Origin: Actinosynnema sp. ALI-1.44
GTDB taxonomy: Bacteria; Actinomycetota; Actinomycetes; Mycobacteriales; Pseudonocardiaceae
NCBI RefSeq assembly: GCF_001984155.1
Contig: NZ_MTQO01000047.1
Location: 310,001-374,000, forward strand
Reading direction: 5' to 3'
Length of the DNA stretch: 64,000 nucleotides
A program made the translations under genes and the position numbers. Every line of letters begins with the position of its first letter. Positions within the stretch are counted from its first letter, which is position 1. Of this stretch, positions 8,773 to 63,442 are shown piece by piece. Under the pieces are notes generated by a model. The model made no database searches and was not told where the DNA came from. It was given only the letters and a program-made list of their open reading frames with translations.

Positions 8773-9897
8773 ATGCGCAGCAAGACCCTTGCCCTCGCCG
8801 CCGTGGGTGCGGGTGTCGCCCTCGTGCTCTCTGCTTGCGGGGCCAACGAGGCACCGGCGCCCGCTGGCGGTGGCTCCACTTCGGGGGCGCCCGCACCGTC
8901 AGGCGGCATGAAGGTCGGCGTGATCCTTCCGGAGACCGCCACCTCCGCCCGGTGGGAGGGCTTCGACAAGCCGATGCTCAAGGCCGCGATGCAGGCGCAG
9001 GGCCTCGACGCGGACATCCAGAACGCGCAGGGTGACACCGCCACCTTCACCCGCCTGGCCGACAGCATGATCACCCAGAAGGTCAAGGTCCTGGTGATCG
9101 CGTCGATCAACAGCGAGCTCGGCAAGACCGTCGCGGCCAAGGCCGCCACCGCCAACATCCCGGTCATCGACTACGACCGCCTCAACCTCGGCGGCAGCTC
9201 GAAGTACTACGTGTCGTTCGACAACACCAAGGTCGGCGAGCTGCAGGGCGAGGCGCTGGCCTCCGCGCTGAAGGGCAAGCAGGGCGCGCAGGTGATCGAG
9301 ATCGAAGGTGCGCCGACGGACAACAACGCGACCCTCTTCTACAACGGTCAGCAGAAGGTCCTCAAGCCGCTGTACGAGAACGGCACGCTGAAGCTGGTCA
9401 AGTCGCAGAAGATCGACAACTGGGACAACCAGGCGGGCGGCCGGACCTTCGAGCAGTTCCTGACCCAGAACGGCGGCAAGGTCGACGGCGTCGTCGCCGC
9501 CAACGACGGCCTCGCGGGCGCGATCATCACCGTGCTGGCCAAGAACGGGCTGAAGGTCCCGGTCACCGGCCAGGACGCCACCCCGGCCGGTCTGCAGGCC
9601 GTGCTGCGCGGCGACCAGTACATGACCGTCTTCAAGCCGATCAAGGAAGAGGCCGAGGCCACCGCCAAGCTGGCCGCCGCGCTGGCCAAGGGTGACACCA
9701 GCGCCGCCGACGGGATCGCCAAGCAGACCGAGAAGGACCCGGTCGGCAACCGCGACGTCAAGTCCGTGCTGCTCACGCCGCAGACGATCACCAAGGCGAA
9801 CGTCAAGGACGTGATCACCGCCGGGTACGTCAAGGCATCCGAGGTCTGCACCGGCGACGTCCAGCCGCTGTGCGCCGCGGCAGGTATCTCCCAGTAG
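8773..9897 (+). CDS. xylF: Xylose-type sugar ABC transporter, substrate-binding lipoprotein
   Basis: 374 residues from ATG at 8773, with GGAAGGA upstream. A lipoprotein signal peptide ends in the lipobox LSAC with Cys22, so the mature protein should be anchored outside the membrane. The periplasmic-binding fold carries VIDYDRLNLG and YYVSFDNTKVGELQG, the segments expected in XylF, and VAANDGLAGAI in the second lobe. It heads a binding protein-ATPase-permease-ROK operon. The likely ligand is D-xylose or a related pentose; exact sugar specificity is inferred from family resemblance. The upstream extension to 8677 has no lipoprotein features and is rejected. Confidence 0.88.
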   Translation: MRSKTLALAAVGAGVALVLSACGANEAPAPAGGGSTSGAPAPSGGMKVGVILPETATSARWEGFDKPMLKAAMQAQGLDADIQNAQGDTATFTRLADSMITQKVKVLVIASINSELGKTVAAKAATANIPVIDYDRLNLGGSSKYYVSFDNTKVGELQGEALASALKGKQGAQVIEIEGAPTDNNATLFYNGQQKVLKPLYENGTLKLVKSQKIDNWDNQAGGRTFEQFLTQNGGKVDGVVAANDGLAGAIITVLAKNGLKVPVTGQDATPAGLQAVLRGDQYMTVFKPIKEEAEATAKLAAALAKGDTSAADGIAKQTEKDPVGNRDVKSVLLTPQTITKANVKDVITAGYVKASEVCTGDVQPLCAAAGISQ

Positions 9898-9911
9898 CAG
9901 TGCCCGAATCT

Positions 9912-9950
9912 CCGGGGCTGGTGCCTGCCCCCGACTGGCACCAGCCCCGG
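9912..9950 (+). terminator. Intercistronic GC hairpin between binding protein and ATPase genes
   Basis: A perfect 14-bp stem (CCGGGGCTGGTGCC at 9912-9925 with its complement at 9937-9950) and an 11-nt loop, with no T-run. It lies 14 nt after the binding-protein stop and 22 nt before the next ATG. In such operons a hairpin here protects the upstream mRNA or attenuates the downstream genes, making binding protein in excess. That role is inferred from position. Confidence 0.7.
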
Positions 9951-9972
9951 GCCCAGCACGGAGCGAACAACC

Positions 9973-10749
9973 ATGAGCAGTGATCCGATCCTCGAGATCA
10001 AGGGTCTGAACAAGACCTTCGGCCCGGTCCACGTCCTGCACGACGTGGACTTCACCGTGCGCGCGGGCGAGGTCACCGCGCTCGTCGGCGACAACGGCGC
10101 CGGGAAGTCCACTTTGGTCAAGTGCATCGCCGGGATCTACGGTCACGACTCGGGAACCGTCACATTCCAGGGCAACGAGGTGCACATCCGCGGGCCGAAG
10201 GACGCCGCGCAGCTCGGCATCGAGGTCGTCTACCAGGACCTCGCACTGGCCGACAACCTCGACATCGTGCAGAACATGTTCCTCGGCAGGGAGCGTGGTT
10301 CGCGCTGGATGCTCGACGAGTCCGCGATGGAGAAAGCCGCACGGGAGACGCTCGCGTCGCTGTCGGTCCGCACGGTCAAGTCCGTGCGCACGCCGGTCGC
10401 GTCGTTGTCCGGCGGGCAGCGGCAGACCGTGGCGATCGCCAAGGCGGTGCTGTGGAACAGCAAGGTCGTGCTGCTCGACGAGCCGACCGCCGCGCTCGGC
10501 GTCGCGCAGACCCGCCAGGTGCTCGACCTCGTCCGCAGGCTGGCCGAACAGGGCCTCGGCGTCGTGCTGATCAGTCACAACATGGCCGACGTGTTCGAGG
10601 TCGCCGACCGGATCGCGACGCTCTACCTCGGCCGGATGGTCGCGCAGGTGCCGACCAAGGAAGTGACGAACACCCAGGTGGTCGAGCTGATCACCGCGGG
10701 GCGGTCCGGCGAGCTCGGCCTCGCCCGTCCCGACGCCGTGACCATCTGA
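9973..10749 (+). CDS. xylG: Xylose-type sugar ABC transporter, ATP-binding protein (single domain)
   Basis: 258 residues with one complete ABC domain: Walker A GDNGAGKST (39-47), signature LSGGQR (145-150), Walker B VVLLDEP (165-171) and switch His202. Enteric XylG/RbsA/MglA proteins are double-domain and about 500 residues; this one is half that length and must dimerise. Such single-domain forms are usual in actinobacterial members. GGAG ribosome-binding site about 10 nt before ATG. It powers import through the adjacent permease at the cytoplasmic membrane face. Confidence 0.9.
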   Translation: MSSDPILEIKGLNKTFGPVHVLHDVDFTVRAGEVTALVGDNGAGKSTLVKCIAGIYGHDSGTVTFQGNEVHIRGPKDAAQLGIEVVYQDLALADNLDIVQNMFLGRERGSRWMLDESAMEKAARETLASLSVRTVKSVRTPVASLSGGQRQTVAIAKAVLWNSKVVLLDEPTAALGVAQTRQVLDLVRRLAEQGLGVVLISHNMADVFEVADRIATLYLGRMVAQVPTKEVTNTQVVELITAGRSGELGLARPDAVTI

Positions 10750-52840: not shown

Positions 52841-53557
52841 TCAGCGGATCACGCCGGCACGCATGGCCAGCGCGACCATCTGGGCCCGGTCACCGGTCCC
52901 GAGCTTCCTGCCGATGCGCGACAGGTGGCTCTTGACGGTGAGTGCGGACAAGTTGAGAGCCTCGCCGATCTCCTTGTTGCTCTGGCCATCGGCGACCAAT
53001 TGCAGCACCTCAACCTCACGGGCGGACAACTCACGAGGTGTGTTGTCGGTCCCCGGAACCCGGGTGCCCGTCGCGAGCACGGGAGCGACACTCGGGTCGG
53101 CGTAGACGCCGCCCTCGAGAACTCGCCGCACTCCGTCGGTCACCACCACCGGCGATGCGGACTTCAGCAGGTAGGCCTGGGCCCCTGCCTGGAAGGCCGA
53201 ACGCACGGCGTACGGGTCGTCGGACGACGCCAGCACCACGATCCTGGGCCACCCGTGGCTACGGAGTTCCGTAACCAACTCGATGCCCGAGCCGTCGGGC
53301 AGCCCGAGATCGAGGATCGCCAGGTCGCATGGCCCAGTGGCCAACGCCCGCGCCCTCGCCTCGGCCACCGAAGCGGCCTCGTGCACCGTGCCCGCGCCCA
53401 TCTGGGTCAACCGAGCAGCTATCGCCTCCCTCAACAACGGATGGTCATCGACCACCAACACCGAGAACAACTCTTCCCGCGGGTGCGGGACCATGTTCGC
53501 CGGCAACGCGCCGGCTGGCGTGGTTCGAACGGCCTGACCTAAGCCGACGGCAGCCAC
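52841..53557 (-). CDS. NarL/LuxR-type response regulator
   Basis: 238 residues from GTG 53557, preceded by AGGGAGGT at 6 nt. Receiver: VLVVDDHPLLREAIAAR, LAILDLGLPDGSG (phosphoacceptor Asp), VLASSDDPYAV and AYLLKSAS. The output HTH is ELSAREVEVLQLVADGQ followed by IGEALNLSALTVKSHLSRIG. No histidine kinase gene is adjacent, so it is an orphan regulator here. The 30-residue N-terminal extension before the receiver is unusual. Confidence 0.9.
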   Translation of the reverse strand: MAAVGLGQAVRTTPAGALPANMVPHPREELFSVLVVDDHPLLREAIAARLTQMGAGTVHEAASVAEARARALATGPCDLAILDLGLPDGSGIELVTELRSHGWPRIVVLASSDDPYAVRSAFQAGAQAYLLKSASPVVVTDGVRRVLEGGVYADPSVAPVLATGTRVPGTDNTPRELSAREVEVLQLVADGQSNKEIGEALNLSALTVKSHLSRIGRKLGTGDRAQMVALAMRAGVIR

Positions 53558-53813
53558 GTCACTACCTCCCTGGAGTCGGTCGTGCCCCCCGACCGGCACC
53601 GGGACTTTCCGCCAATCAGCCGCGCCGCTGATGGACCGAAAGTGGTGTCGACGAGGGCAGCCTAGCCGCCCAAGCGGGTCAACGGGACGATCAATCGGGT
53701 ATGTATCCGATCGGGTTGTGACTTTCTGGACGTGTTGTCACACGATCAGGTGACTCCGGTATTGGTGAAGTAACGCAAGCATGCCCCAACGCGATGGAAC
53801 GAGGTCATGGGTA

Positions 53814-55686: not shown

Positions 55687-56763
55687 ATGGGGAAGGTGAC
55701 CACCGCATCGCCCGTCCGCCGGGATCTCGCCAACGCTCCGTTGCTCGCCGCCGCGAGCGGTCAGACCCCTGAGCGCACGCCGGTGTGGTTCATGCGGCAG
55801 GCCGGTCGCTCGTTGCCCGAGTACCGCAAGCTTCGCGAGGGCGTGCCGATGCTCCAGGCGTGCTTCACGCCCGAGATGGTCGCCGAGGTCACCCTCCAGC
55901 CGATCCGCAGGCACGACGTGGACGCGGCGATCCTGTTCAGCGACATCGTCGTACCGCTCAAGGCGGCCGGGATCGACCTGGACATCGTGCCGGGCACCGG
56001 GCCTGTGGTGGCCTCGCCGGTGCGTGACGAGCGTGCCGTGAACGCGCTCCCGGTGCTCGACCCGGCCAGCCTCGACCCGGTCGCCGACGCGGTCCGGCTG
56101 TTGACCGCGCAGTTGGGGGACGTGCCGCTGATCGGTTTCGCGGGTGCGCCGTTCACGTTGGCCTCGTACCTGATCGAAGGCGGCCCGAGCAGGCACCACG
56201 AGCGCACGAAGGCGTTGATGAAGGCGCAGCCGGACGTCTGGCACGCGCTGCTGACCCGGATCGGCGACTACACGCTCGAGTTCCTCGGTACCCAGATCGG
56301 TGCGGGCGTCGACGCCGTCCAGCTGTTCGACTCGTGGGCGGGTGCGCTGTCCGAGGCCGACTACCGCGAGTTCGTGTTCCCGCACTCCCAGCGGGTGCTC
56401 GCCGGGCTGGCGTTCGCCGGTGTGCCGCGGATCCACTTCGGTGTCGGCACGGCCGAGCTGCTGCCCGCGATGCGCGAGGCCGGTGCGGACGTGGTCGGCG
56501 TGGACTGGCGCCTGCCGCTGGACGAGGCCGTGCGCAGGCTCGAGGCCGCCGCCCCGGACGCACCGAAGCCGGTAGTGCAGGGCAACCTCGACCCTGCGGT
56601 GCTTTTCGCGGGTTGGGACGTGGTCGAGCGTGAGGTACGGCGGATCGTCGCGGAGGGCAAGGCCGCCGCGGGGCACGTGTTCAACCTCGGCCACGGCGTG
56701 ATGCCGGACACCGACCCGGCCGTGCTGACCCGAGTCGTCGAGCTGGTCCACAGCATCCGCTGA
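55687..56763 (+). CDS. hemE: Uroporphyrinogen decarboxylase
   Basis: 358 residues from ATG 55687. It catalyses decarboxylation of uroporphyrinogen III to coproporphyrinogen III. Motifs: [28 protein letters not shown] (catalytic Asp), [27 protein letters not shown] and [12 protein letters not shown] with [13 protein letters not shown]. It starts a haem operon: its stop overlaps the hemY ATG by 1 nt. Confidence 0.95.
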
Positions 56764-58220
56764 TGTCCGCACGAGTTGTCGCTCCTCGAGTTGTTGTCGT
56801 CGGCGGTGGGATAGCCGGTCTGGCCGCCGCGTACCGGATGCGGGTTCTGCGGCCGGACGCCGAGATCACGGTCGTCGAGTCGTCGGCGCGGCTCGGTGGC
56901 AAGCTCCGCACGCGTGAGTTGGCCGGTTCGGCGGTCGACGTCGGCGCGGAGGCGTTCATCCTGCGCAACCCGGCCGCTGTCCGCCTCGTCGACGAGCTCG
57001 GTCTGAGCGAGCGCTTGGTGCACCCGGTGCTGTCGGCCGCGACCGTGCACGCCGCGGGGCGCACGGTCGCGTTGCCGAAACGCACGTTCCTCGGCCTGCC
57101 TGCCGGGCCCGACGAGGTGCGTGACGTGCTTTCCCCGTCGGCGACGGCGAAAGTGGCCGCCGAACGGGACCTGCCGCCGCTGGCGGTGGAGCAGGACCCG
57201 GCAGCGCCCGACGTGTCGGTGGGGCAGGTGATCGCCGAGCGGTTCGGCCGGGAACTGGTGGACCGTCTCGTCGAACCGCTGCTGGGTGGCGTGTACGCGG
57301 GCCGTGCCGACATGCTCGGTCTGCGCGCCACCATGGCGCCGCTTGTCGGCACGCGTCAGACGTTGACCGAGGCGGTCGGACGCGTTCTCGGGCCGCCACG
57401 GGAAGGCGCTCGGCTCCCGGTGTTCGGCGCGCTGCGCGGCGGAATGGACGTCCTTGTCGACGAACTGGCCAAGCGGTCCACGGCGGATGTTCGCCTGGGT
57501 CTGCCCGTGCGGGCTCTGACGCGGACCGGGCAGCACGGCTGGCGGCTGGAAATCGGCAGCGCGGCGGCGCCGGGGTTCCTCGACGCCGACGCCGTCATCC
57601 TCGCGGTTCCCGCTCCGGCCGCACGCAAGCTGCTTGAGGACGTGGCTCCTGTGGCGTCCGCCGCTTACGGGCGAGTGGAGGTGGCGTCGATGGCAGTGGT
57701 GAGCCTGGCGTTGCCACCGGACGCGGTCCTGCCGGACGCGACGGGCGTGCTGCTGGCCGTGGGGGAGCGGCACGCCGATGGAACCCCGTTTACTGCAAAG
57801 GCTTTCACGTTTTCCAGTCGGAAGTGGGGCCGTACCAGGGGTGAACCGGTGCAGTTGCGCGCGTCCGTCGGGCGCTACGGCGAAGCCGCGACCCTGCAAC
57901 GGGATGACGACGAGCTGGTCGCCGACGTGCGGTCCGATCTGTGCGAACTCACCGGAGTCGACGTTGCGCCAGTCGAGCGAATCGTGACCCGTTGGGGTGG
58001 TGGCCTTCCCCAATACGGACTCGAGCACACCGGGGCCGTCGCAGTGATCATGGACACGGTCGCCGAAATCCCTGGTCTCGCCGTGGCCGGTGCTACTTTG
58101 CGAGGTGTGGGTATACCGGCGACCATCGACTCGGCAACCGCTGCGGCATCGGCGATCGGCGCTTACCTGGCGTCGCGATCGGGCGAAATTGGTGCGCCGA
58201 GTGGCCTAGTGGGTGACTAA
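56763..58220 (+). CDS. hemY: Coproporphyrinogen III/protoporphyrinogen oxidase (HemY/CgoX)
   Basis: 485 residues. FAD-binding N-terminus VVVVGGGIAGLAAAYRM, then VVESSARLGGKLRTRELAG. Middle: LVDRLVEPLLGGVYAGRADM. C-terminus: TRWGGGLPQYGLEHTGAVAV and GLAVAGATLRGVGIPATID. In organisms with HemQ this enzyme oxidises coproporphyrinogen III to coproporphyrin III. It overlaps hemE by one base (TGATG). Confidence 0.93.
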   Translation: MSARVVAPRVVVVGGGIAGLAAAYRMRVLRPDAEITVVESSARLGGKLRTRELAGSAVDVGAEAFILRNPAAVRLVDELGLSERLVHPVLSAATVHAAGRTVALPKRTFLGLPAGPDEVRDVLSPSATAKVAAERDLPPLAVEQDPAAPDVSVGQVIAERFGRELVDRLVEPLLGGVYAGRADMLGLRATMAPLVGTRQTLTEAVGRVLGPPREGARLPVFGALRGGMDVLVDELAKRSTADVRLGLPVRALTRTGQHGWRLEIGSAAAPGFLDADAVILAVPAPAARKLLEDVAPVASAAYGRVEVASMAVVSLALPPDAVLPDATGVLLAVGERHADGTPFTAKAFTFSSRKWGRTRGEPVQLRASVGRYGEAATLQRDDDELVADVRSDLCELTGVDVAPVERIVTRWGGGLPQYGLEHTGAVAVIMDTVAEIPGLAVAGATLRGVGIPATIDSATAAASAIGAYLASRSGEIGAPSGLVGD

Positions 58221-58344
58221 CCGCCTGTGCTACAGTGCGGCACCGTTGTGGTCTTTTTCCTGGTGACTCACAAAAGAGCATCGTGGTGGATCTCTTGCGG
58301 GCGTCGCGCTTTATTTGAAAAGTATTCGACACCGGTGGAGTGAC

Positions 58345-60909
58345 GTGAGATTTCTGGGTGACCGGCACCAGGGCCACGGCTCTATCCGGACGCGACTCAC
58401 GATCGTCGTGGTGTTTTCGGCGGTCGCTCTGCTGGTGATGTGGGTCGCGGTCGCCATGCCCCGGCTGTACGACGCGATCTACTTGCGCAAGGTCAGCGAC
58501 GCGATGCAGGAGATCGTGCCGAAGGCCGTCCGCGCGCTGAGCACGGTGCAGGCCGAACGGGCCCAGAGCCTCGCGGCCGCCGGGTCGGGAGCCGAGCTGG
58601 CCAGCGCCCGCAACCGGACCGACCAAACGCTGCGTGAGGTGCGCGAGCTGGTCGAGCCGCTGATGCCCAGCGCCCCCGATGCCGTGCGTGACCGGCACCT
58701 GACCTTCGTCAGGACTTTCGACGAGCTGCCCGCCGTCCGCGCCCAAGCGGACACGAAGGCGATCACCCGGTCGGAATTGTACGCTTTTTACAACAAAGTT
58801 GCCGATGTCAGCATCGCTGTTTTCGATAGTTTCGCGAGGGCTGTGCCGGATCAGCGGACGGCGTTCAGCGGGGCCGAGGTGATCTCGCTCTTCCGGGCGG
58901 CCGAGCTGATGTCACGAGCGAGTGCGGTGGTCGGTGGCGCTATTACCACCGGTGCTCTCAATCAAGCGGACCACGCCGAATTCGTCCGGCTCTCCGGCGC
59001 CTATCGGCAGCAGCTCGAATTGTCCACACAAAACAGTTCGCGTGATGTCCGGTCCGCCTACCAGGAGTTACTCGGCGGCGACGACTGGAAACGGCTGACA
59101 ACGGTGGAGGGGACGCTGATCAGCCAGGGTCCGTGGACCGTCGTCGCGCAGCGCAACCGGACTGAGGGGCAACTCACCGCGCCTCCGGTGAGTGATCAGG
59201 AGTGGCGTGACGTCACCGGGAAGGTCTACACCAGACTGGAGCAACTCGGTGTCCGCCAGTTCGACGACTCGGCCAGGCTGGCCGACGACGAGTCCAGCTC
59301 CGGGCTGACCGCGGTGATCATCGGCAGCGCGATCGCCTTGCTCGTCGGGCTCCTCACCATCGTCACCGCGTTGCGGATCATGCGGGACACCGCGCGCAGA
59401 CTGACCAGGTTGCGGTACGAGACGCTGGAACTGGCGGTGGAGAAGCTCCCGCCGATCGTCGGCAGGCTGCGCGGCGGCGAACAGGTCGACGTGACCACCG
59501 AACTGCCGGTGCTGGACTTCGGCAAGGACGAGATCGGCCAGGTCGCCAGGGCGTTCAACGCCGCGCACGCCACAGCGGTCGAAGCGGCAGTGCAGGAGTC
59601 ACAGGCACGGGCCGGTGTGCGCAACGTGTTCCTCGGCATCGCGCACCGCAGCCAGGCACTGGTGCACCGGCAGCTCAAGATCCTCGACAAGCTGGAGCGC
59701 GAGCAGGAGGACCCGCAGCAGCTCGACGACCTGTTCACCCTGGACCACCTGGCCACGCGCGCACGCCGCAACGCTGAGAACCTGATCATCCTCGGCGGCC
59801 AGCAGCCGGGCCGGGCGTGGCGCAAACCTGTTCTGCTCGCGGACATCCTGCGTGGCGCGGTCGCCGAAACCACGCAGTACAAGCGAATCCGGCTGCAGGG
59901 TGTGCCGCGTGTGCTGCTTGTCGGCACGGCCGTCGCCGACACCATGCACCTGCTGGCCGAACTGCTCGACAACGCCACGTCGTTCTCCCCGCCGCGGTCG
60001 CACGTGCGGCTGTCCGGCGAGCACGCGGCGAAGGGCATCGTCGTCGAAGTCGAGGACAACGGGCTCGGCATGGGCGACGACGAACGCGACCAGCACAACG
60101 TGGTGCTCGCCGATCCACCGGACTTCGAGTCGATGGCCCTCAAGGGCGACCCGCGCCTCGGCCTGTTCGTGGTCGCGCGACTGGCCGCCCGGCACGGCAT
60201 CAAGGTGGAGTTGCGGTCGTCCTCGTACGGTGGCACCAGGGCGATCGTGTTGATCCCCGCGCCGCTGTTGGTCGAGGCAGGCGACGAGGACACACTCGAG
60301 ACGCTCCCGACGGCGCCGGCGGCGCGGACGGCGTCACCCGACGCGGAGTACGACGACGTGCTGCCGTACCGGGTTTCGCTCTTCAACCCGATGGGCGAGG
60401 CGGTGGACGAACCACAGCCGCCCGCCGAGCACACCGCTGACGCCGCCGCGGAGTACAGCACGAGTTTCGACACGGATTTCGACTCGGACGACGGGACCTG
60501 GTACGGCGAGCACGCCGCGAGCACCGCGAACTTGGCGGACGCCCACTCGACGGACGCACAGCAGTTCCAGTCCCCGGGGACCGAGCCGCGATGGCCGGAA
60601 GAAGACATGGTTGAACCAGAACCGCCCACGCCGAGTGTGCATCCCGTGCACACTCCCCCCGGGCTGAGCCACCCAGCACCGACGCCGCCCCGCGTCCCGC
60701 AGGCAGCGCCCCCGAACCTGGGCCCGCCCGACAGACCCGCGTTGCCGCGCCGCCGCAGGCAGGCCAGCCTCGCGCCGCAGTTGCGCGAGACCTCACCGAT
60801 GCGGCCGGAGGACCACGACCCGGCAGGCGGTCGCTCGCCAGAGGAGATCCGCAGCATCATGTCGGCCTTCCAGCAGCAGACCCGGCGTGCACGGGATGAG
60901 GATCGGTAA
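58345..60909 (+). CDS. cvnA: Conservon sensor kinase-like protein CvnA
   Basis: 854 residues from GTG 58345 (GGTGGAG 4 nt upstream); a TTG at 58315 is less likely. One helix (TIVVVFSAVALLVMWVA), a large extracellular nitrate/nitrite-sensing-like domain (about 40-310: VQAERAQSLAAAGSG, FNKVADVSIAVF-like segments), a second helix (LTAVIIGSAIALLVGLLTIV) and HAMP. Then come IAHRSQALVHRQLKILDKLE and an HATPase domain (LLDNATSFSPPRSHV, DNGLGMGDD, RLGLFVVARLAARHG). The last ~200 residues are disordered Pro/Asp-rich. The usual phosphoacceptor His context is degenerate, as in CvnA proteins. It interrupts the haem operon. Confidence 0.9.
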   Translation: MRFLGDRHQGHGSIRTRLTIVVVFSAVALLVMWVAVAMPRLYDAIYLRKVSDAMQEIVPKAVRALSTVQAERAQSLAAAGSGAELASARNRTDQTLREVRELVEPLMPSAPDAVRDRHLTFVRTFDELPAVRAQADTKAITRSELYAFYNKVADVSIAVFDSFARAVPDQRTAFSGAEVISLFRAAELMSRASAVVGGAITTGALNQADHAEFVRLSGAYRQQLELSTQNSSRDVRSAYQELLGGDDWKRLTTVEGTLISQGPWTVVAQRNRTEGQLTAPPVSDQEWRDVTGKVYTRLEQLGVRQFDDSARLADDESSSGLTAVIIGSAIALLVGLLTIVTALRIMRDTARRLTRLRYETLELAVEKLPPIVGRLRGGEQVDVTTELPVLDFGKDEIGQVARAFNAAHATAVEAAVQESQARAGVRNVFLGIAHRSQALVHRQLKILDKLEREQEDPQQLDDLFTLDHLATRARRNAENLIILGGQQPGRAWRKPVLLADILRGAVAETTQYKRIRLQGVPRVLLVGTAVADTMHLLAELLDNATSFSPPRSHVRLSGEHAAKGIVVEVEDNGLGMGDDERDQHNVVLADPPDFESMALKGDPRLGLFVVARLAARHGIKVELRSSSYGGTRAIVLIPAPLLVEAGDEDTLETLPTAPAARTASPDAEYDDVLPYRVSLFNPMGEAVDEPQPPAEHTADAAAEYSTSFDTDFDSDDGTWYGEHAASTANLADAHSTDAQQFQSPGTEPRWPEEDMVEPEPPTPSVHPVHTPPGLSHPAPTPPRVPQAAPPNLGPPDRPALPRRRRQASLAPQLRETSPMRPEDHDPAGGRSPEEIRSIMSAFQQQTRRARDEDR

Positions 60910-60921
60910 GGGGAGAACTGG

Positions 60922-61341
60922 ATGAAGAAGGCGAACACAGGCGCGGACCTGGACTGGTTGCTCGACGACCTGGTCGGCCGGGTCGTCGGCGCCAGGCACG
61001 CGGTCGTGCTGTCCGCGGACGGTCTGCTCGTCGGGCGATCCGCCGCGTTGTCCAAAGAGGATGGTGAGCACCTCTCGGCTGTGGCTTCGGCGTTCCAGAG
61101 CCTCGCGCGCGGCACCGGCAGGCAGTTCGGCGGCGGCAAGGTGCGCCAGACCATCGTGGAGATGGAACACGCGTTCCTGTTCGTCACCGCGGCGGGCCAG
61201 GGCACGTGCCTCGCCGTGCTCGGCGAGGAGGACGCCGACGTCGGGCTGATCGCGTACGAGATGAACCTCCTGGTCAAACAGGTCGGATCGGTGCTCAACG
61301 CGTCGCCGAGACACGAACACCTTGGCGTGCCGACGTCATGA
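60922..61341 (+). CDS. cvnB: Roadblock/LC7-domain protein CvnB
   Basis: 139 residues, ATG start with AAGGGGAG upstream. A single roadblock/LC7 domain: LDWLLDDLVGRVVGARHAVV, LSADGLLVGRSAAL, HLSAVASAFQSLARGTGRQ and AFLFVTAAGQGTCLAVLG. In conservons this protein partners the small GTPase CvnD as a regulator of its nucleotide state. It overlaps cvnC by 4 nt (ATGA). Confidence 0.92.
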   Translation: MKKANTGADLDWLLDDLVGRVVGARHAVVLSADGLLVGRSAALSKEDGEHLSAVASAFQSLARGTGRQFGGGKVRQTIVEMEHAFLFVTAAGQGTCLAVLGEEDADVGLIAYEMNLLVKQVGSVLNASPRHEHLGVPTS

Positions 61342-61709
61342 TCGCCAGCCGCGACAACTGGGTGGACGACGAGGCCGGGCCGCTGGTGCGCCCGTACGCG
61401 ATGACGCGCGGGCGGACGAGACCGGCGAACCGCGACCTGAATATGATCACGCTCGTGGTCGCGGCCAAGGACGACGTCGACACGGTCACGCTGGACGCCG
61501 ACTACGTGGCGATCCTCGAACTGTGCCGCCACCCGCTGTCGATCGCCGAGCTCGCCGCCCGGCTGGACGTGCCGATCGTGGTTGTCAAGGTCCTGGTGTC
61601 GGACTTGATCGAACTGCGGGAAGTAATAGCCCGCAACCCCTCGCGCGATGTCAGAGTCCCAGACATGAAACTACTGCAGGCGGTGCTCGATGGTGTCCGA
61701 CGACTCTGA
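61338..61709 (+). CDS. cvnC: DUF742 protein CvnC
   Basis: 123 residues from ATG 61338. DUF742 opens with GPLVRPYAMTRGRTRPANRD and has a helix-turn-helix-like core: VAILELCRHPLSIAELAARL, PIVVVKVLVSDLIELREVI. Conservon component of unknown biochemistry. Overlaps cvnB by 4 nt and cvnD by 20 nt. Confidence 0.92.
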   Translation: MIASRDNWVDDEAGPLVRPYAMTRGRTRPANRDLNMITLVVAAKDDVDTVTLDADYVAILELCRHPLSIAELAARLDVPIVVVKVLVSDLIELREVIARNPSRDVRVPDMKLLQAVLDGVRRL

Positions 61710-62274
61710 GGCGATGCCCAGCGCGGTCAAGATCCTCATCGCGGGCGGGTTCGGCGCGGGCAAGACCACGATGGTCGCCGCGGTCAGCGAGATCGCCCCG
61801 CTGTCGACCGAGGAGCTGCTCACCGAGGCCGGGATCGGCGTCGACGACCTCGCCGGCATCGAGAACAAGCTGACCACGACGGTCGCGCTGGACTTCGGCC
61901 GGATCACGCTCAACGACCGGGCGATCCTGTACCTGTTCGGCACGCCGGGCCAGGGCCGGTTCTGGTTCATGTGGGACGAGCTGGCCTTCGGCGCGATCGG
62001 GGCGGTCGTGCTCGCTGACACCCGCAGGCTGGAGACGTGCTTCCCGTCGATCGACTTCTTCGAGAAGCGCGACGTGCCGTTCGTGATCGCGGTGAACTGC
62101 TTCGAGGGTGCCGCGCGCTACGAGATGGCCGAGGTGCGTGAGGCGCTGGACGTCGGGGAGGACGTGCCGATCGCGCTGTGCGACGCGCGTGACCGGGAGT
62201 CCGCCAAGGAGGTGCTGGTCACACTGGTGGAGTACGTGCTGAGCAAGCAGACGTTGGCTCGTGCCACGATGTAG
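61690..62274 (+). CDS. cvnD: Conservon small GTPase CvnD
   Basis: 194 residues. P-loop [19 protein letters not shown], switch region [15 protein letters not shown]3-like [17 protein letters not shown], and [10 protein letters not shown] in place of the usual NKxD. The G3 position reads TPGQG instead of DxxG, typical of MglA/CvnD-type Ras-like proteins. Starts 20 nt before the cvnC stop; its own stop lies 2 nt before hemQ. Confidence 0.92.
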
Positions 62275-62276
62275 GT

Positions 62277-62969
62277 ATGGCTCGCCTCAACTTCGCCGAA
62301 CTCAACGACACGATCCGGTACACCATGTGGTCGGTGTTCCGGGTCGAACCGGGCAAGCTCCCCGATGACCGCGGCCCGGCGGCCACCGAGGCGCAGTCCT
62401 ACCTCGACGCGCTCGACGACAAGGGCGTCGTTGTACGGGGCGTGTACGACGTAGCGGGCCTGCGCGCGGACGCGGACTACATGATCTGGTGGCACGCTGA
62501 GGAGATCGAGCAGGTACAGGCCGCGTACACCGGGTTGCGGCGGACCGCGCTCGGTCGCGTGTCCACGCCGGTCTGGAGCCAGGTCGCGCTGCACCGGCCC
62601 GCCGAGTTCAACAAGAGCCACATCCCGGCGTTCCTCGCCGGTGAGGAAGCCCGCAAGTACGTCTGCGTGTACCCGTTCGTCCGGTCCTACGAGTGGTACC
62701 TGCTGCCGGACGAGGAGCGCCGCAAGATGCTCGCGGAGCACGGTCACATGGCCCGCGACTACCCCGACGTGCGCGCCAACACCGTCGCGTCGTTCGCGTT
62801 GGGCGACTACGAGTGGATGCTCGCGTTCGAGGCGGATGAACTGCACCGGATCGTGGACCTGATGCGTCATCTGCGCGGCAGCACGGCCCGGCGGCACGTG
62901 CGTGAGGAAATCCCGTTCTACACCGGCACGCGGCTGCCCGCGGCCGAGCTCGTGACCAACTTGCCGTGA
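62277..62969 (+). CDS. hemQ: Coproheme decarboxylase HemQ (chlorite dismutase fold)
   Basis: 230 residues, ATG 2 nt after the cvnD stop. It opens [14 protein letters not shown], then [40 protein letters not shown] and [20 protein letters not shown] with [20 protein letters not shown] (proximal His region). The catalytic Tyr lies in the YPFVRS segment. HemQ oxidatively decarboxylates coproheme to haem b as the last step in this pathway. Here it is separated from hemE-hemY by the conservon but likely shares its transcript. Confidence 0.95.
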
Positions 62970-63015: not shown

Positions 63016-63048
63016 AAAGCCCGAATGGTGGTGAACCATTCGGGCTTT
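63016..63048 (+). terminator. Strong terminator after hemQ
   Basis: A perfect 14-bp stem (AAAGCCCGAATGGT at 63016-63029 and its complement at 63035-63048) with a 5-nt loop, ending in TTT, 47 bp beyond the hemQ stop. It can also terminate the minus-strand peptide gene from the other side. Confidence 0.88.
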
Positions 63049-63069: not shown

Positions 63070-63255
63070 TCAGTCGTAGCCCATGCCGTCTGTGTTGGTA
63101 CCGCAGTCGTAGCCCATACCGTTCTGGCAGGTCTGGTCGTAGCCCATGCCGTCGGGGCTCGGTGCCGCGACGGCCGCCGCCGCGCCCGAAAACGCCAGTC
63201 CCGCGACTGCCGCCGCGCCCGCGACCAGCATCACGATGCGAGTGGGTGTCCGCAT
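63070..63255 (-). CDS. Tiny secreted peptide with three GMGYD repeats
   Basis: 61 residues from ATG 63255 with AGGAAATC before it. A signal peptide (MRTPTRIVMLVAGAAAVAGL, cleavage near AVA30) is followed by about 31 mature residues in which GMGYD occurs at 36-40, 46-50 and 57-61. Two of these copies are preceded by Asp and one by Asn. Two cysteines (43 and 51) flank the middle copy and could form a disulphide loop. The protein ends exactly with the third repeat. No family recognised. Divergent from the LAL-type regulator gene. The frame further upstream to 63360 has no ribosome-binding site. Confidence 0.7.
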   Translation of the reverse strand: MRTPTRIVMLVAGAAAVAGLAFSGAAAAVAAPSPDGMGYDQTCQNGMGYDCGTNTDGMGYD

Positions 63256-63442
63256 GATTTCCTCCGCACGCCGATTCTGTGGAGATCGGACGAAAATGTG
63301 CCTACAGAGTGGCAGTGCGGCAGTAATCGGCAATCGAGCGCGCAGTAAATAGTTGGCCAACGATGGGTTGCGGCGCCGAAAAGTGAACAGCGCTGAGCAA
63401 TCGAAACAATTCTACGGCCATTGTTGGGCTGTCGAGCGAGTA

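Follow-up and report, generated by a model that had tools for sequence, protein, structure and literature searches.

A conservon between hemY and hemQ in Kibdelosporangium, and a start-anchored motif that may give hemQ its own transcript

Introduction

When a signalling cassette lies inside a haem biosynthesis cluster, does it take part in the control of the haem gene that follows it, or is it only a neighbor? This question is raised by a stretch of 64,000 nucleotides (nt) from Actinosynnema sp. ALI-1.44 (contig NZ_MTQO01000047.1, positions 310,001 to 374,000), referred to here as the window. According to its list of open reading frames, with families assigned via Pfam and NCBIfam, the forward (+) strand carries hemE, hemY, cvnA, cvnB, cvnC, cvnD, and hemQ, in that order. 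A first-pass annotation, made from the sequence alone, had placed the conservon cvnA-cvnB-cvnC-cvnD between hemY and hemQ, which is borne out, each gene being confirmed by family models. It had also proposed that this G-protein unit and hemQ likely share one transcript.

We consider the following course of events probable. An ordinary actinobacterial conservon would have entered, in a single event in the genus ancestor, between hemY and hemQ's own promoter; the insertion would lie upstream of the −10 element of hemQ, and the cvnD frame would now end inside that element. The conservon would be transcribed from a promoter of its own that overlaps the 3′ end of hemY, and hemQ would be expressed from its own leaderless transcript together with some read-through from cvnD. 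The conservon would then signal as other conservons do, with no need for a specific tie to haem.

A conserved motif before hemQ

In the window, hemQ (chdC; 62277..62969, + strand) encodes a coproheme decarboxylase (NF042928, NCBIfam HemQ_actino, 7e-113). At 16 nt before its ATG stands GTGCCACGAT (62261..62270, + strand), a −10-like motif of the form GTGnnAnnAT that is encoded by the last cvnD codons (R-A-T-M). Comparison with other genomes was anchored on HemQ. A first sample comprised 80 named genome loci, which are the best 80 of 587 confirmed candidates and are biased to close relatives; for a second sample, 200 genomes of the family were drawn, with 7 of the window's genus (Kibdelosporangium, as judged from named loci) besides the window. 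From 98 loci with a HemQ match, 73 non-redundant loci outside the genus were retained after removal of duplicates and of those with an alignment short of the ATG or too little upstream sequence.

GTGnnAnnAT is found at −16/−17 before the hemQ ATG in 65 of these 73 loci and in all eight loci of the genus; these counts describe the motif and are no blind test, because the column profile that yielded it was made from these loci. Over the 300 nt that precede each of the 73 hemQ genes (approximately 20,800 positions in all), no further occurrence was seen, and when alternative hemQ starts were scanned instead, the motif was present in 66 of 84 loci. The motif is also kept in seven of eight loci where 0.7–3.5 kb separate hemY from hemQ. 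In the genus, it precedes hemE in seven of eight loci, and it was found before hemY in none of 81; among control stretches, those of hemE gave 5 matches (22,120 positions) and those of hemY and hemQ gave none. Since the motif is anchored to the start, kept across split loci, present before hemE, and never seen before hemY, a leaderless transcript probably begins at hemQ itself. At the hemE of the window, the motif overlaps ATG 55687 and sits 17 nt before GTG 55696; because of this overlap, GTG 55696 is probably the true start of hemE, and not the ATG.

Leaderless promoters offer a standard for comparison. In Streptomyces lividans, 17% of transcripts are described as leaderless, with a hexamer TAnnnT some 6 nt before the start, in which A2 reaches 94.5% and T6 97.4% (PMC8079986). 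For Mycobacterium tuberculosis, the −10 element is described as lying 7–12 nt before the start (PMC3898074). Before hemQ, nAnnAT stands at about −12 to −7 in most Pseudonocardiaceae loci (L013–L127) and, in a looser form, across the class (L201–L249).

Besides the way in which the motif was derived, several points weigh against a leaderless hemQ promoter. Outside the genus, GTGnnAnnAT precedes hemE in just 14 of 71 loci. In most hemQ hexamers, the first position of TANNNT is not T but usually G or C, and a sigma-70-type scan, which requires a −35 hexamer, lists neither the hemQ promoter nor the cvnA promoter proposed here. In a class-wide sample of the 29 best-scoring loci and 20 hand-picked from other families, strict TGnnAnnAT was present in just 14 of 48. 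A looser A..AT at −11/−12 was seen in 35 of 44 usable loci, versus 12 of 340 pseudo-starts, but this form was chosen after the strict result, and the several start candidates per locus favor matches slightly. Taken at face value, the looser pattern predicts that leaderless hemQ mRNA would be widespread across the class. In the open-access literature, no link between hemQ and leaderless was found; PMC7058343 uses both words, unconnected.

The deviant first position and the absence from the promoter scan are also what would be expected by an alternative explanation, in which GTGnnAnnAT is a translation signal or a protein-binding site and hemQ is read from the upstream genes. AGAGGA, a potential ribosome-binding site, does occur within −18 to −4 of hemQ in 10 of the 73 loci outside the genus. 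Nevertheless, Shine-Dalgarno-like GGAG precedes hemQ in just 2 of the 73 and in none of the eight genus loci, the hexamer at −12 to −7 fits the position described for leaderless promoters (PMC8079986), and the motif is seen at hemE and hemQ but is missing at the internal gene hemY. We thus regard this explanation, which is compatible with a conservon-hemQ operon, as improbable.

Distribution of the insert and its junction with hemQ

The full arrangement of hemY, conservon, and hemQ is present in all eight genomes of the genus (the window and seven others), with the same A-B-C-D order in the seven others. Only 3 of the 80 named hemQ loci have a conservon between hemY and hemQ, and all three are in the genus: Kibdelosporangium philippinense, K. 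persicum, and a record labelled Rhodococcus rhodnii NRRL B-16535. The last of these groups with Kibdelosporangium and is probably mislabelled; likewise, a contig named Melainabacteria (L048) bears an actinobacterial hemQ and is probably contaminated or mislabelled.

Outside the genus, a scripted search (E 1e-5) gave no conservon match in 77 of 77 named hemQ loci, although 9 of the 74 that bear hemY have less than 9.9 kb of upstream sequence, down to 1.1 kb. Also by script, no match was found in 30 further family loci (L090–L119; 1.5 kb upstream), and there was none in the 49 class-wide loci, of which 29 reach up to 1.5 kb and 20 about 0.3 kb upstream; 42 of these 49 gave some haem-gene match. 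For the remaining family genomes of the 200, no cvnD stood beside hemQ among the matches listed, as judged by eye from the coordinates.

The first-pass annotation had called for a comparison of hemY-hemQ spacing across relatives, and its outcome is that the insert is genus-specific. hemY was found upstream of hemQ in 74 of the 77 named loci outside the genus, with a gap of −32 to 125 nt in 64 and of 236–3,489 nt in 10 (some hemQ starts being approximate), while in the genus the separation is approximately 3.9–4.1 kb and contains the conservon. That annotation had also considered that a conservon beside hemQ might be placed at random among relatives. Within the genus as sampled, the arrangement is fixed, and no case of it was found in other genera; its presence in all eight genomes is not chance, even if it goes back to one ancestral event.

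Other genes have also entered this junction. In five of the eight loci where hemY and hemQ are 0.7–3.5 kb apart, unrelated genes were identified: Amycolatopsis anabasis (L033, 6557–10000) has an antisense subtilase gene, and Umezawaea endophytica (L022, 6512–10000) has, also antisense, a related protein that is 48% identical to it; Pseudonocardia eucalypti has a PEP-mutase-like protein, Amycolatopsis marina one that is RraA-like, and Nocardia jejuensis both a PLP enzyme and an unnamed protein. Separately, in Saccharomonospora iraqiensis and S. halophila (L060 and L061, around 9400–10000), just the 3′ end of hemY seems to be left before hemQ, and a frame that reads as GntR-like or histidine-kinase-like runs into this remnant, which may be a fusion or an assembly error.

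These observations bear on whether the conservon makes up a single functional operon with hemQ, in which read-through from the cvnA promoter would be a main source of HemQ and G-protein signalling would be tied to the last haem step. The junction between cvnD and hemQ measures 2–3 nt in all eight genomes of the genus, and no + strand terminator-like site is listed between the two genes, which makes read-through plausible. Furthermore, the third positions of the last 30 cvnD codons show no raised conservation (invariance of 0.47 versus 0.52), so there is no sign of a pre-hemQ element longer than the motif. By contrast, hemQ keeps its own start-anchored motif in most of the family, and the hemY-hemQ junction tolerates unrelated inserts in other genera. 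Overall, we consider such an operon unlikely.

The shared transcript of the first-pass annotation thus fares differently in its parts. A complete conservon does stand directly ahead of hemQ, with a constant short junction and plausible read-through, but a dependence of hemQ on that transcript is not supported, as most of the family, though it has no conservon there, bears the −10-like motif at −16/−17. The motif suggests a dedicated start for hemQ, which is the kind of evidence that the annotation had itself set against its proposal. The junction can nonetheless be turned against an incidental insertion: it has been kept in spite of divergence (CvnA identity falls to 64%), and this could reflect selection for linkage. 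Even so, conservation in eight genomes of one clade is one event.

Origin of the insert

A tree of CvnB, CvnC, and CvnD was built for 76 loci, duplicates included (FastTree, midpoint root, support values not read). Five loci without CvnB, CvnC, or CvnD matches were dropped, among them three (L004, L005, and L008) of the seven other above-cut-off conservons in the genome of the window. The CvnB-C-D sequences of the genus form one clade with a long stem, beside conservons of other genera and separate from those further conservons of the genus that the tree contains; this fits a single insertion in the genus ancestor. In addition, in a C-terminal alignment of 24 sequences, hemY ends with a tail of about 13 residues that is specific to the genus, and cvnD has a genus-specific C-terminal end, R-A-T-M (R-A-T-I in one genome). 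Both would be expected if these frames run into joined DNA. A comparison of the neighbors of the nearest conservons was uninformative and did not yield the source locus of the insert, which tells against the proposed insertion; the conserved neighbors were rejected as a guide, being large paralogous families only.

A candidate promoter for the conservon

Between the hemY stop at 58220 and cvnA there is a gap of 124 nt, absent from the first-pass annotation, that contains conserved sequence. Because of this gap, the spacing does not imply co-transcription of the conservon with hemE and hemY. An alignment of the eight genomes reveals a conserved stretch that spans the hemY 3′ end and the first part of the gap (58160..58260, + strand), a possible promoter region for the conservon. 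The third positions of hemY have an invariance of 0.80 in the last 20 codons, versus a gene mean of 0.20, and this conservation continues into the gap. Within it lies TGCTACAGT (58228..58236, + strand), an extended −10-like motif that is identical in all eight genomes and matches TGNTANNNT as described in PMC3898074. Given the conservation that runs from the hemY end into the gap and the invariance of this motif, a promoter that belongs to the conservon and overlaps the 3′ end of hemY probably drives its transcription. Nevertheless, the invariance of the gap taken whole is 0.64, and equal conservation is reached in coding windows of cvnA, cvnB, cvnC, cvnD, and hemQ, which lowers the weight of this argument.

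When nhmmer was used to look for the pre-cvnA element in other genera, 11 genus sequences were matched, duplicates included, and the single further match was weak (E 1.2), at another place in L124. The gap also holds two + strand terminator-like sites (58229–58252 and 58296–58308), and the region has eight such sites versus 2.8 in shuffled sequences. The T-run of the first is only partly kept in the other genomes. In the consensus fold, no pair is changed on both sides and the covariation term is unfavorable. An Rfam element was rejected, as there were two weak matches on the opposite strand, below the gathering score.

Two further features were noted in this region. A hairpin AAGAG...CTCTT (58274–58296), in the presumed cvnA leader, is kept in most of the eight genomes, with one-sided changes and a few broken pairs. 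TGCTACAGT is flanked by GTGACTAAC at 58213–58221 (five of the eight genomes, with GTGAGTAAC in three) and by GTGACTCAC at 58263–58271 (seven of eight); GTGACTAAC and GTGACTCAC, 50 nt apart, are a possible operator pair.

Genes of the locus

The cluster starts with hemE (55687..56763, + strand; TIGR01464, 403 bits), followed with an overlap of 1 nt by hemY, for coproporphyrinogen/protoporphyrinogen oxidase (56763..58220, + strand; TIGR00562, above cut-off). Next, cvnA (58345..60909, + strand, GTG start) encodes a histidine-kinase-like sensor with a NIT domain (Pfam NIT 2.2e-29, HATPase_c 2.9e-12); both domains are above cut-off, while HAMP, at 22 bits, is under the cut-off of 25. Its His434 is invariant in 18 of 18 aligned CvnA. 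Then come cvnB (60922..61341, + strand; roadblock/LC7 protein, Robl_LC7, PF03259, 1.9e-24), cvnC (61338..61709, + strand; DUF742 protein, PF05331, 2.3e-34), and cvnD (61690..62274, + strand; small GTPase-like protein, PF03029, Pfam ATP_bind_1, 2.7e-31). A P-loop GxxxxGKT can be read in CvnD, a predicted GTPase, for which phmmer found no solved chain at E 0.001. The core of a conservon is therefore present, with the ATPase and sensor region of CvnA, with CvnB, CvnC, and CvnD, and in a compact A-B-C-D order. The four spacings of the first-pass annotation are exact: 12 nt between cvnA and cvnB, overlaps of 4 nt (cvnB/cvnC) and 20 nt (cvnC/cvnD), and 2 nt between cvnD and hemQ. The identity of hemQ is secure, with 375 bits against a cut-off of 235 in the HemQ_actino equivalog model, and the nearest solved chains are coproheme decarboxylases of the PDB (best 7e-105).

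Downstream of hemQ, an inverted repeat AAAGCCCGAATGGT...ACCATTCGGGCTTT (63016..63048, + strand), read directly from the sequence, is a possible terminator. A similar repeat is seen in two (L120 and L126) of the seven other genus loci, and this one is missing from the terminator-like sites listed by the window scan. Convergent with hemQ, a small secreted-looking protein with repeated DGMGYD-like units is encoded at 63070–63360 on the reverse strand. Near DUF3000-hemE, a NarL-type response regulator, which may resemble WhiI, is encoded at 52841–53599, also on the reverse strand; its best segments are about 91–100% identical in most family loci and 83–88% in Pseudonocardia.

The NIT domain and sensing

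The NIT-like domain noticed in the first pass is real and spans residues 67–304 of CvnA. To NasR (4akk), CvnA gives a weak profile match, with an E value of 3.4e-5 for the whole sequence and 2.9e-4 for the best stretch. In this weak alignment, the Glu-Arg of helix 1, presumably nitrate-pocket residues, is kept, and CvnA has Ala and Ser versus E175 and R176 of NasR (numbering offset inferred). The nitrate-pocket pair of NasR helix 5 that PMC7496416 names is thus absent from CvnA in this alignment. Most CvnA homologues are described as having NIT, and the authors of that description think that those of Streptomyces coelicolor likely sense other ligands (PMC13343842). Because NIT is so common among CvnA, it is no pointer to nitrate, and nitrate sensing was rejected as a specific inference. 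Consequently, a redox or nitrogen-oxide tie to haem supply, which the first-pass annotation had drawn from this domain, does not follow.

Implications

At this locus, a signalling cassette has been cleanly inserted beside a haem gene that is matched once per genome. As the ancestral hemY-hemQ state, the conservon-inserted state, and states with unrelated inserts all exist, they provide a simple test of neighborhood versus function. The motif fixed to hemQ suggests that this gene is often transcribed apart from hemE and hemY, which bears on the regulation of the coproporphyrin pathway. A bolder proposal, which we hold to be doubtful, is that the Kibdelosporangium insertion rewired the last haem step: read-through from the conservon promoter, itself under the control of a signal, would add to or occlude the leaderless hemQ promoter within the cvnD end, and a G-protein sensor would set the level of HemQ independently of hemE and hemY. 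In sum, the neighborhood is real, whereas control of signalling together with haem supply is a proposal.

Comparison with known systems

HemQ might also be seen as an accessory protein that makes a fifth part of the conservon, comparable to the P450 CvnE or the GAF protein CvnF of five-gene conservons. In both cases an extra gene stands beside the core, here directly after cvnD, and HemQ would share haem binding with CvnE-type P450s. Haem binding is established for the HemQ family. Nevertheless, the fifth gene is here HemQ_actino, a biosynthetic enzyme in its ancestral place in the haem cluster that is matched once in every one of the 200 family genomes, and not a P450 or a GAF protein. Moreover, CvnE and CvnF are described as overwhelmingly accompanying CvnA without a sensory domain (PMC13343842), whereas CvnA of the window has an extracytoplasmic-type NIT sensor. 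An accessory role for HemQ is thus very improbable.

With ordinary conservons, such as those of S. coelicolor, the likeness is close, as the A-B-C-D order, the domains, the overlapping frames, and the NIT-type CvnA are the same as described in PMC13343842. What differs is the place between hemY and hemQ, with hemQ 2–3 nt after cvnD; in the open-access literature, no paper was found that pairs a conservon with hemQ or with coproheme. As for the leaderless promoters of actinobacteria, the position and conservation of the hemQ hexamer would fit them, but its first base mostly differs from that of TAnnnT, and the sigma-70-type scan does not list the site. Finally, the genes, order, and strand of the hemE-hemY-hemQ cluster of Actinomycetes are all preserved. 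In M. tuberculosis these genes are consecutive, as the first-pass annotation had stated and as agrees with a table in PMC7058343 (rv2678c hemE, rv2677c hemY, and rv2676c hemQ), and the genus of the window differs from that cluster by the conservon between hemY and hemQ.

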